64,000 bases of DNA. Source: Vibrio gallaecicus. GTDB taxonomy: Bacteria > Pseudomonadota > Gammaproteobacteria > Enterobacterales > Vibrionaceae. The notes beneath the pieces were generated by a model. The model had not been told where the DNA came from and searched no databases. It worked only from the letters and a program-made list of their open reading frames with translations. Position numbers and translations under genes: made by a program. The stretch spans positions 248,001 through 312,000 of the forward strand of contig NZ_AP025491.1 in the NCBI RefSeq assembly GCF_024347495.1, given 5' to 3'. Shown here piece by piece: positions 51,170-54,052 of the stretch (the stretch's first letter is position 1; every line of letters begins with the position of its first letter).

Positions 51170-51742
51170 TTATTTGAATTGGTAGTCGACACCAACAGTA
51201 AATGCAGAAGCAGTAGAGCTGCTATTCAATAATTGGAAGTTATAGCTGGCATTGAATTTAAAGTTTTTCATTGGTGTTAGCATGTTGACCCCTAGGGACC
51301 CATACGGATATATACCAGTATCTTCAGTTCGGATATAAGCTTGGTTAGCTTGATCCCATGACTTCTCAGTAATGGTTAGGTGAGATGCTCCGCCTTTCGC
51401 ATAGACAGAGAAACGCTTACTTAAATGGTGTTGAAATTTAACTCCAGCTCCAAGTCCCTTATAACTGGTTACTAAGTCGTCACTAGTCGGGTTATTTTCT
51501 GGATCATCCAACGCTCTTGAGTCCGTATAACTTAGATCTAGTGCCATAAATGGTGAAAAGTAGTAGTTATAACCAAATCGGTGATACCAGCCCTGCGATG
51601 TAGATTTACTATTTTTGGTCGAAGACAGACCTATGTCGGTGTAAAGATCATGTTTAGATGATGCAGCATAAAGGTGGGTGCTCGTCATTAGAGTTCCACC
51701 CACAGCAGCAAGTATTAGATATGTTTTTTTTAGTCCGATCAT
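51170..51742 (-). CDS. Outer-membrane beta-barrel protein, OmpA/OmpW-like small porin fold
   Basis: A 190-residue secreted protein. Residues 1-26 are a signal peptide (LILAAVGGTLMTSTHLYAA, cut near AAS). The rest is a chain of alternating amphipathic strands with the end YNFQLL...VGVDYQFK, an outer-membrane C-terminus ending in Phe-Lys. The pattern fits an eight-stranded barrel of the OMP_b-brl type. It is a paralogue of the next gene upstream (same length, same strand order, shared YLSPFMALDLSY-like stretch: here YYFSPFMALDLSYTDSRALD). Confidence 0.8.
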   Translation of the reverse strand: MIGLKKTYLILAAVGGTLMTSTHLYAASSKHDLYTDIGLSSTKNSKSTSQGWYHRFGYNYYFSPFMALDLSYTDSRALDDPENNPTSDDLVTSYKGLGAGVKFQHHLSKRFSVYAKGGASHLTITEKSWDQANQAYIRTEDTGIYPYGSLGVNMLTPMKNFKFNASYNFQLLNSSSTASAFTVGVDYQFK

Positions 51743-51884: not shown

Positions 51885-52439
51885 TCAGAATGTTAAATAC
51901 GCACCAGCGAATAAAGATGCAGCACTTTCATTGTTTGGTAGCCACTGATAAGACACACCGGCATCTAGTAGAAGAGGAGAGCCCTTTGGAGCGAATTTTA
52001 TTCCGGCACTCGCATAAGGTTCAATGCTGCTTTCTTTAGTTGTTTCAACCGCACTATTAGCAACACTCCAACGCGAGACTTCAGAGTCTATATAGCTTGC
52101 TCCTCCTATACCGTATAGATCAAACCAGCCAATTCCTTGTTCTAACTTCAGCCCTAATCCGTAAGAATTATATTTTGAAGCAAAGCTTGTACTGTTCGCA
52201 GCAACGCTACTGTCTAATGTGGCGGTATGGCGATAATTCAAATCTAAAGCAACAAATGGAGTGAGGTAATGATTATAACCAGCTTGTGCAAAGTAAGCTG
52301 TTTCGGAGTCAGACCCATCTGAAATCATCGTGGCTCCAACATTGGTATAGAAAGAACCAGGTTGAGATTGGGCGATAGCGCTGCCACTTGAGATAATCAA
52401 CGCTGTAGTGAATGCGAATAAACCCAGTGATTTGTTCAT
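51885..52439 (-). CDS. Outer-membrane beta-barrel protein, paralogue of neighbour
   Basis: A 184-residue secreted protein from ATG 52439 (AGGAAGG upstream; six extra codons upstream are not needed). Signal peptide at about 1-24 (ends SGSAIAQ), then amphipathic strands including HYLTPFVALDLNYRHTATLD and a final Phe (AGAYLTF), typical of BamA-recognised barrels. Its matching stretch in the neighbouring gene (FSPFMALDLSY) suggests a tandem duplication that has since diverged strongly. Role unknown; small barrels of this sort often act in adhesion or envelope stability. Confidence 0.8.
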   Translation of the reverse strand: MNKSLGLFAFTTALIISSGSAIAQSQPGSFYTNVGATMISDGSDSETAYFAQAGYNHYLTPFVALDLNYRHTATLDSSVAANSTSFASKYNSYGLGLKLEQGIGWFDLYGIGGASYIDSEVSRWSVANSAVETTKESSIEPYASAGIKFAPKGSPLLLDAGVSYQWLPNNESAASLFAGAYLTF

Positions 52440-52854
52440 GTTTACCTTCCTAGTCATGTAATTTCCCGATTTTTAAGTGGCAAATTAATGCCTTTAATAT
52501 TTATTAAAGCAAAATGTGCTCCAACATATTGAGTTAAAGATAAAATAATTGATCGAAAAAAGTGATTATTTAAAGGTAATGATGATTATTTTTAATAAAA
52601 CCTGGACTGAATCAGTTTAAATTGACTGAGTTTTAACCGGAATTTTAGTGACTTAATGCATGGTTTAAATAATAAATGTACCCGAGTGGGAATTTTAGGT
52701 TAGTAGCTCGTATGTTATTTGCGCAAAGGTTTGCGTCATGGATTCGGTTAAGTAGTTAATTTGCTTGGAAAAGTAATGAATAGAGGCTTTGTAGGGAAGT
52801 GGCTGGTATGCAGCTTTTCCGAATGGTATCACAAATAAAATTTTAATATCAGGC

Positions 52855-52882
52855 TTGTAGATAAGAAATCGCAGCCTATAAT
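52855..52882 (+). promoter_or_regulatory. Putative guaC promoter
   Basis: TTGTAG, 16 bp, TATAAT (52877-52882), a perfect -10 element. Transcription should start near 52889, at the foot of the hairpin that follows. The 415 bp to the left, up to the barrel gene, show no gene. Confidence 0.7.
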
Positions 52883-52886
52883 GCTG

Positions 52887-52921
52887 AAAACCGGAGCGTC
52901 TGCCAACGCTCCGGTTTTTTT
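52887..52921 (+). terminator. Start-proximal intrinsic terminator in guaC leader
   Basis: Perfect 8-bp stem CCGGAGCG / CGCTCCGG (12 bp with flanking A and T), loop TCTGCCAA, then seven T. It lies immediately after the expected transcription start and before guaC, so guaC must be read through it or transcribed from within. Confidence 0.88.
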
Positions 52922-52935
52922 GTGTCCGAAGAAAA

Positions 52936-52961
52936 GTAAATCCGTCTGCCAACGAATTTAC
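52936..52961 (+). other. Second leader hairpin with the same loop
   Basis: GTAAATCCG pairs with CGAATTTAC (one C-A mismatch) around the loop TCTGCCAA at 52945-52952. The loop and two closing pairs equal those of the terminator hairpin (12-nt identity CGTCTGCCAACG at 52897 and 52943), while the rest of the stem differs. A small third dyad CGCATTTGCG follows at 52964. Confidence 0.7.
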
Positions 52962-53008
52962 AACGCATTTGCGAGTGACACATATATTCATGAATCAAGG
53001 AAAACACT

Positions 53009-54052
53009 ATGCGTATCGAACAAGAACTTAAGTTAGGTTTCAAAGATGTATTATTTCGCCCGAAGCGTTCTACTCTTAAAAGCCGTTCCCAAGTAAATTT
53101 AACCCGCGATTTTACATTCAAGCATAGTGGTCGTCAATGGTCAGGTACGCCTGTTATTGCGGCTAATATGGACTCAGTTGCTACTTTTGAAATGGCAGCA
53201 GCTCTCGCTGAACACGGTGTGATGACGGCTATCCATAAGCACTACACAGTAGAGCAATGGGGTGAGTTTGTTAAAACTGCAGATAAAAACACGTTAAACA
53301 ATGTGTTTGTTTCTACGGGTACTTCTGATGCTGATTTTGAAAAAATCAAAGAGATCATGTCATTCAGTGAAGATTTAGTCTTTATCTGTATTGATATTGC
53401 CAATGGTTATTCAGAGCACCTAGTGGACTACGTAGAAAAAGTGCGCGCTGAATTCCCAGATAAAGTTATCTCAGCTGGTAACGTTGTAACTGGCGACATG
53501 GTTGAAGAACTTATCTTAGCGGGCGCTGACATCGTTAAGGTTGGTATTGGCCCTGGCTCTGTGTGTACTACCCGTGTAAAAACAGGCGTTGGTTACCCTC
53601 AACTTTCTGCCATTATTGAGTGTGCAGATGCTGCCCACGGTTTAGGTGGAACAATCATTGGTGACGGTGGCTGTTCATGTGCGGGTGATGTATCTAAAGC
53701 GTTCGGCGGCGGTGCTGACTTCGTAATGCTAGGCGGCATGCTAGCAGGTCACTCTGAGTCTGGTGGTGAAGTTGTAGAGCAAGACGGTAAGCAGTTCATG
53801 AAGTTCTACGGCATGTCTTCACAGTCGGCTATGGACAAGCACTCTGGTGGTGTTGCTAAGTACCGTGCTGCGGAAGGTAAAACTGTTTTACTTCCATACC
53901 GTGGTTCAGTTCACAACACAATTTCTGACATCCTTGGTGGTGTACGTTCAACTTGTACATACGTAGGCGCAGCAAAGCTTAAAGAGCTAACTAAGCGTAC
54001 GACTTTCATCCGTGTACAAGAGCAAGAGAACAACGTATTCGGTAAAGAATAA
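53009..54052 (+). CDS. guaC: GMP reductase
   Basis: A 347-residue enzyme of the IMPDH/GMPR family that reduces GMP to IMP with NADPH, allowing guanine to be reused for adenine nucleotides. Key parts: [20 protein letters not shown] at the start (GMPR-type), VIAANMDSV, the catalytic Cys in [17 protein letters not shown], the [22 protein letters not shown] phosphate-binding stretch, and no CBS insert, which separates it from IMP dehydrogenase. AAGGAAAA lies before the ATG. The leader has the two same-loop hairpins described above, so purine-responsive control of the transcript is plausible. Confidence 0.95.

Follow-up and report, generated by a model that had tools for sequence, protein, structure and literature searches.

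The gene for GMP reductase, guaC, poses a simple question in Vibrio gallaecicus: why does its leader appear to begin with a terminator hairpin, and why is the loop of that hairpin repeated in a second one a few nucleotides further on? We address this question in a stretch of 64,000 nucleotides (contig NZ_AP025491.1, positions 248,001 to 312,000; the window hereafter). An earlier note, made from the letters of the window, had described the promoter and both hairpins, and had read them as a selected RNA motif that acts as an attenuator or tandem purine sensor, or gives rise to a short RNA. Our comparison of relatives shows that the guaC leader is a real RNA motif, strongly selected and conserved family-wide in the Vibrionaceae. 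The reading of the locus as an RNA motif at the probable guaC start thus stands; the classic picture of a sensor followed by a terminator does not, as here the terminator comes first.

Architecture of the guaC Leader

The features of the leader are collected in Table 1. The promoter has the letters and spacing that had been claimed for it, with 16 nt between TTGTAG and TATAAT, and this geometry is kept in relatives. Directly downstream lies HP1, a perfect 14-bp inverted repeat with arms GAAAACCGGAGCGT (52886–52899) and ACGCTCCGGTTTTT (52906–52919) on either side of a CTGCCA loop and a fold energy of −18 to −20.7 kcal/mol; the perfect stem followed by seven U's is present as first described (52886–52921). 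After a linker of 16 nt comes HP2, composed of GTAAATCCGT (52936–52945), CTGCCA, and ACGAATTTAC (52952–52961). This second stem still pairs, as had been proposed, but its pairing in the window is imperfect, with a single C·A mismatch between 52942 and 52955. The fold of 52884–53012 is more stable than 200 of 200 dinucleotide shuffles (z = −3.66).

The 12-nt identity between the two hairpins was also borne out: the shared 12-mer CGTCTGCCAACG has exactly two copies in the two-contig, 5.13-Mb genome, both of them in the guaC leader. The loop size of eight was not. The shared element is better described as a hexaloop, CUGCCA, closed by a U–A pair, because the closing pair becomes C–G or G–C in relatives.

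Table 1. Features of the guaC leader, in window coordinates
Feature	Position	Strand	Basis
Promoter, sigma-70-type: −35 TTGTAG; −10 TATAAT	52855–52860; 52877–52882	+	Sequence
HP1, start-site terminator hairpin, GAAAACCGGAGCGU-CUGCCA-ACGCUCCGGUUUUU	52886–52919	+	Sequence, fold
HP1 hexaloop CUGCCA	52900–52905	+	Loop counts across leaders
U7 tract of terminator (T7 in DNA)	52915–52921	+	Sequence
Outer stem around HP2, 5′ strand GUGUC (probable)	52922–52926	+	MFE fold; by-eye covariation
HP2, second hairpin, same loop, variable stem	52936–52961	+	Covariation
HP2 hexaloop CUGCCA	52946–52951	+	Loop counts across leaders
Outer stem around HP2, 3′ strand GACAC (probable)	52977–52981	+	MFE fold; by-eye covariation
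Shine-Dalgarno AAGGA	52997–53001	+	Sequence
guaC, GMP reductase, 347 aa	53009–54052	+	NCBIfam PRK05096.1, 656.8 bits (cut-off 397)

A generic promoter and terminator scan listed neither the guaC promoter nor HP1 among its + strand entries, probably because the −35 hexamer shares only TTG with TTGACA and because the U-run can be drawn into pairing with the A-run of HP1. The same scan entered HP2 read on the − strand (52936–52961), where TTTTC follows it, as terminator-like. Upstream, two adjacent ORFs of 190 aa (window 51170–51742 and 51885–52457, − strand) have signal-peptide-like starts and resemble, by eye, tandem small outer-membrane barrels; the one at 51885–52457, divergent from guaC, has no match among NCBIfam models.

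Conservation across Vibrionaceae

Every GuaC copy in 131 Vibrionaceae genomes was collected, giving 114 leaders from 113 genomes, the window included; a separate set drew on named genomes, in which 574 guaC loci were confirmed and the upstream sequence was read for the best 80. The closest guaC relatives from named genomes are Vibrio, at 98% identity (L003). Both hairpins are present in 109 of the 114 leaders, with HP2 sought as a 6-nt loop at most two mismatches from CUGCCA, and 105 of the 114 have CUGCCA in both loops. These 105 comprise 87 found by script, three found by script with an 8-nt HP1 loop (a C·A closing pair), and 15 read by hand, 13 of which have a mismatch in the HP1 stem and two of which have weak HP2 stems. 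The earlier note would have counted it against its own reading if other Vibrio guaC leaders had not kept the loop or stems, and we found the opposite.

The promoter and first hairpin vary little. TATAAT, three nucleotides, and G[A/T]AAA follow each other in 112/114 leaders, and in 108 of these 112 the spacing from TTG to TATAAT is 16 nt. HP1 lies in the same frame in 110/114, its 5′ arm being CCGGAGCG in 108 and its U-run exactly seven T in 105 of these; the start tract is GAAAA in 109 and GTAAA in one. This conserved spacing of promoter and hairpin makes it very probable that guaC transcription starts at the edge of HP1. The HP1 loop of the 110 in-frame leaders is CUGCCA in 106 (three with the C·A closing pair), CUGCAA in two, and CUACCA and CUGACA in one each. 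For HP2, CUGCCA is found in 106 and CUGCAA in three of 109 leaders (15 of them read by hand).

The departures are few. CUGCAA fills both loops in two of the 114 leaders, one from another genus (L166, genus g15) and one from the genus of the window (L177). One leader combines CUGCCA in HP1 with CUGCAA in HP2 (L228), and one CUGACA in HP1 with CUGCCA in HP2 (L235). A further leader (L131, genome G003) has three hairpins, with loops CUGCCA, UUGCCA (HP2), and CUGCCA. Five of the 114 (L133, L134, L135, L163, and L165) have no HP2 of the twin-loop kind, and their HP1 is without CUGCCA. At the genome level, a GuaC match at E ≤ 1e-120 was absent from the eight sampled genomes of genus g22 and the two of g19, both Vibrionaceae.

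Several other features of these loci were observed. In one genome (G148, genus g20), guaC is present twice, at C1:608839–609879 and 617604–618644, with about 8.8 kb between the two; each copy has its own twin-loop leader (L156 and L157), the U-runs being eight and seven. Between the HP2 domain and the Shine-Dalgarno region, an AUYCGAU, UAUCGAU, or GUCCGAA element is conserved in genera g15, g18, g20, and g23, such an element occurring in most of 40 rows out of 59. Four IMG/VR contigs (L282–L285) contain guaC with a twin-loop leader, guaC being partial in L285; in two of them (L282, 2249–3364; L283, 1292–2407) the next ORF of at least 100 aa past guaC is integrase-like by eye, which suggests that phages or islands integrate on the 3′ side of guaC.

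Covariation and Loop Changes

A shared loop on independent stems had been taken as the mark of a selected RNA, and the stems bear this out, together with the 105 canonical pairs of loops. In an alignment of 40 HP2 sequences (39 distinct), 96.8% of cells at the inner four pairs are standard pairs, and compensatory changes on both sides occur at all four. These pairs give a covariation score of 0.873. Shuffles score 0.267, and 0/500 come as high; shifting one strand against the other leaves no more than 0.131. The rows of this alignment were picked for CTGCCA, so that loop conservation rests on the count of 114 leaders, and one leader with CTGCCA but no stem (L063) was excluded. In HP1, the closing U–A pair is replaced by C–G in 13 of the 110 in-frame leaders, and the basal C–G pair is replaced by A–U, by eye, in L133 and L135. 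A loop-closing G–C pair occurs, again by eye, in L147. The outer stem GUGUC/GACAC lies in the same place in relatives and covaries by eye, although it is weak in each single sequence: in only 17 of 108 leaders does the longest helix give p ≤ 0.1 when set against 50 mononucleotide shuffles. We regard this stem around HP2 as probable.

Do the two loops change together? Among 329 family genomes, a pattern that requires unaltered HP1 arms, and so covers only leaders of that kind, finds a departure from C at position 5 of the HP1 loop only in the genomes of L166 and L177, the two with CUGCAA in both loops. The co-change has a hypergeometric P of 5e-4 over the 109 tandem leaders, a value that ignores phylogeny and follows a post hoc choice. 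The converse pattern, a canonical HP1 with a position-5 change in HP2, matched 20 of 324 genomes; one match is true (G113, the genome of L228, also listed as L272), and the remaining 19 have CTGCCA as their HP2 loop and were hit at another place. Read from these leaders, the HP1 and HP2 loops appear mostly to evolve together, and the single-loop changes of L228 and L235 count against a strict coupling.

Mimicry of an anticodon was considered as well, as CUGCCAA suggests that of tRNA-Gly; the 6-nt register of the loop and the CUGCAA variants do not preserve the anticodon, and the idea was dropped.

Distribution of the Motif

With 150 of 1,062 first-look candidates scored, the HP2 model found two sites at E ≤ 10 in the genome of the window, both in the guaC leader. 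Over 31 genomes, with at most 150 first-look candidates scored in each, further matches outside guaC were among those listed. We examined 16 of these: nine lie inside open frames of 236–274 aa, five inside frames of 147–189 aa, and two, with frames of 75 and 101 aa, are ambiguous. A wider regulon for HP2 was rejected on this frame context, 14 of the 16 lying within open frames of at least 147 aa. A search of the order Enterobacterales with GCGTCTGCCAACGC matched nine of 119 genomes, seven of them of the genus of the window. The two others, which are the HP1-core matches among the 112 genomes outside the family, fall within open frames that have no guaC close by. As far as seen, the motif is restricted to guaC. 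Such an occurrence suggests that the regulator either acts mainly on other targets or is the product, or a metabolite, of guaC itself.

Beyond the family, a terminator hairpin with the same spacing from the −10 region is present in ten loci of Shewanella, Thalassotalea/Thalassomonas, Oceanimonas, Zobellella (with one related MAG), and Aeromonas. These loci read AAACCGG...CCGGTTTTTTT, with TGCC within 1–2 nt after it in seven of the ten, and their common core is the AAACCGG start region, the CCGG stem base, and at least seven T. The YCUGCCAR HP2 is absent from all ten, and their loops differ. Motilimonas (L051) has a similar hairpin by eye, and AACCGG was not found in the 260 nt upstream of guaC in 18 further loci (L065–L082; Moritella, Endozoicomonas, Kistimonas, Enterobacteriaceae, Yersinia, and others). 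The start-site terminator is therefore probably older than the twin loop, which would have been added in the Vibrionaceae.

A Proposed Mechanism and Its Alternatives

We propose, tentatively and at somewhat less than an even chance, that the leader is a start-site attenuator with two sites for one loop-reading factor, likely a protein, the first of them lying within the terminator. RNA polymerase would leave the promoter directly into HP1, an intrinsic terminator, and a fraction of guaC transcripts would end there, after about 32–36 nt; read-through would yield guaC mRNA whose 5′ UTR contains HP2. The YCUGCCAR loop would be recognised by a single factor acting in trans, most probably a protein, on nascent HP1 as its first site, where the factor could tune termination, and on HP2 as its second, where it could affect translation or stability of the read-through message. 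We infer the start site, termination at HP1 in vivo, the common factor, and its protein nature from the comparison of leaders. Since the terminator precedes HP2, the second hairpin comes too late to decide whether its own transcript ends at HP1, and an attenuator of the classic sensor-then-terminator kind is therefore the wrong picture.

In favour of this proposal, CUGCCA is also missing from HP1 in the five leaders that have no HP2. The near-invariant HP1 stem, which exceeds what loop binding would require, and the absence of HP1 from the generic scan count against it, and no candidate for the factor emerged. GuaC itself as the reader is unsupported, as no residue is exclusive to the GuaC proteins of the two CUGCAA genomes: Q143, present in both where the closest relatives compared mostly have E, recurs in 23 of 75 further proteins; A82 (8/75) and A276 (18/75), likewise common to both, are not unique either. 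It is rather unlikely, in our estimate, that the terminated HP1 RNA (about 35 nt, with its 5′ end in the stem and a U tail) acts as a decoy carrying the loop of HP2. If it did, each aborted transcript would titrate a regulator or ligand-bound partner off the guaC mRNA, and the leader would be a self-titrating switch: how often transcription ends prematurely would set how far the read-through message is translated or degraded.

A small-molecule riboswitch of two minimal hairpins, like guanidine-II, whose loops would pair via GC and enclose a ligand, perhaps a compound of guanine or adenine, with an effect on the read-through mRNA, is unlikely but agrees with much of the layout: two hairpins, a short variable linker, and an HP2 kept only in its loop and closing pair. 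GC is self-complementary, CUGCAA in both loops would give a UGCA/UGCA match, and a placement at guaC only, as far as seen, fits a metabolite of GMP reductase. The leader with CUGACA opposite CUGCCA (L235) would, however, disrupt the loop-loop pairs, and termination is decided before HP2 exists. Purine riboswitches usually serve several genes, whereas the model gave no second genomic site (150 of 1,062 candidates scored). Were the reader instead a small RNA with a UGGCAG-type seed that pairs with both loops, a conserved 6-nt loop shown twice could be its kissing target, and a change of seed would be followed by a concerted change of loops. To our knowledge, known sRNA targets seldom persist as structured loops whose stems drift; we consider this account improbable, although 5′ UTR fragments that act with sRNAs are known in E. 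coli (PMC7815308).

Two further accounts were weighed. In nucleotide-sensing initiation of the Bacillus pyrG kind, the A4 tract would slip, or the start would shift with NTP pools, and thereby alter the terminator, HP2 being a separate minor element. The core kept in the ten loci of lineages without the twin loop, namely the AAACCGG start, the CCGG base, and at least seven T, speaks for such a mechanism, and reiterative transcription that prevents attenuation has been reported for pyrG (PMC4448216). It leaves the identical loop of HP2 and the loop co-change unexplained, however, and the tract is A4 rather than G, so that an added A would pair with the U-run and not with the 5′ strand of the terminator; we hold it to be improbable. 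An operator acting at the DNA level, or inverted repeats arisen by chance, might be suspected from the perfect repeat of HP1 just past the promoter. Both are contradicted by the covariation of HP2, whose pairing is kept while the stem sequence drifts and whose score collapses when one strand is slid (0.873 to at most 0.131), and we give them a very slight probability indeed.

The leader belongs to a purine-salvage gene and is strongly conserved across the Vibrionaceae. Its natural loop variants (the double CUGCAA, the single changes of L228 and L235, and the three-hairpin L131) are ready test cases for a loop reader and could reveal the control of GMP reductase in this family.

Comparison with Known Systems

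The twin-loop guaC leader is apparently undescribed. The covariance models of Rfam 15 gave no match at gathering score in the whole window, in agreement with the earlier view that guanidine-II, purine, PRPP, and ppGpp riboswitches do not fit; near the leader there are three sub-threshold matches, the best of them, with E = 0.35, on the other strand. A literature search, mostly outside subscription journals and supplements, returned no description of this guaC leader, and the term guaC gave nothing in three Vibrio RNA papers (PMC7398697, PMC8577284, and PMC9732341). In V. cholerae, small-RNA reads have been placed in the interval between VCA0197 (guaC) and VCA0198 (Table 1 of PMC3136459).

The loops of guanidine-II (mini-ykkC) RNAs are ACGR tetraloops, whereas the guaC leader has the hexaloop CUGCCA, and its first hairpin is the terminator at the probable start. 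The likeness lies in two small hairpins, a short variable linker (16 nt in the window), and a possible loop-loop contact; guanidine-II is described with two stem loops, tetraloops, and a linker of 7–40 nt (PMC7544219). In pyrG, the terminator lies close to the start site, and G is added at the start, the +1 G tract being complementary to the 5′ strand of the terminator. The pyrG leaders of Bacillus and Streptococcus resemble that of guaC in belonging to a gene of nucleotide metabolism and in having a terminator near the inferred start; the start tract of guaC is, by contrast, A4 and not a G tract, and its second hairpin repeats the terminator loop. The pyrG leader contains a rho-independent terminator and is controlled at initiation (PMC4448216). 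In the case of 5′ UTR-derived sRNAs and sponges (ChiZ and IspZ), a short RNA with a role of its own can be set free when transcription terminates within the 5′ UTR (PMC7815308); the RNA predicted for guaC differs in being about 35 nt long, essentially one hairpin whose loop is the only single-stranded seed.

In RNAs of the ANTAR proteins NasR and EutV, two tandem hexaloop hairpins accompany a leader terminator and the protein reads loop positions, A1 and G4 being required (PMC3369931). The guaC leader likewise has two tandem hairpins with 6-nt loops, whose closing pair covaries, and a terminator. Its loops, however, have C1 and C4 (CUGCCA in both in 105 of 114 leaders) in place of A1 and G4. 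A search for ANTAR proteins found no match in the genome of the window; one of nine Vibrionaceae genomes searched had a match above the cut-off (G037) and another weak ones below it (G009), and as positive controls, all three genomes reached via Klebsiella and Raoultella loci had one above it. An ANTAR system was rejected on the loop positions 1 and 4 and on the lack of an ANTAR protein in the genome itself. The order of elements also differs: in ANTAR leaders, as described, the mini-hairpin lies upstream of the terminator, whereas in guaC the terminator is itself the first hairpin, an unusual layout in which the terminator is transcribed first and has its loop in common with the second hairpin.
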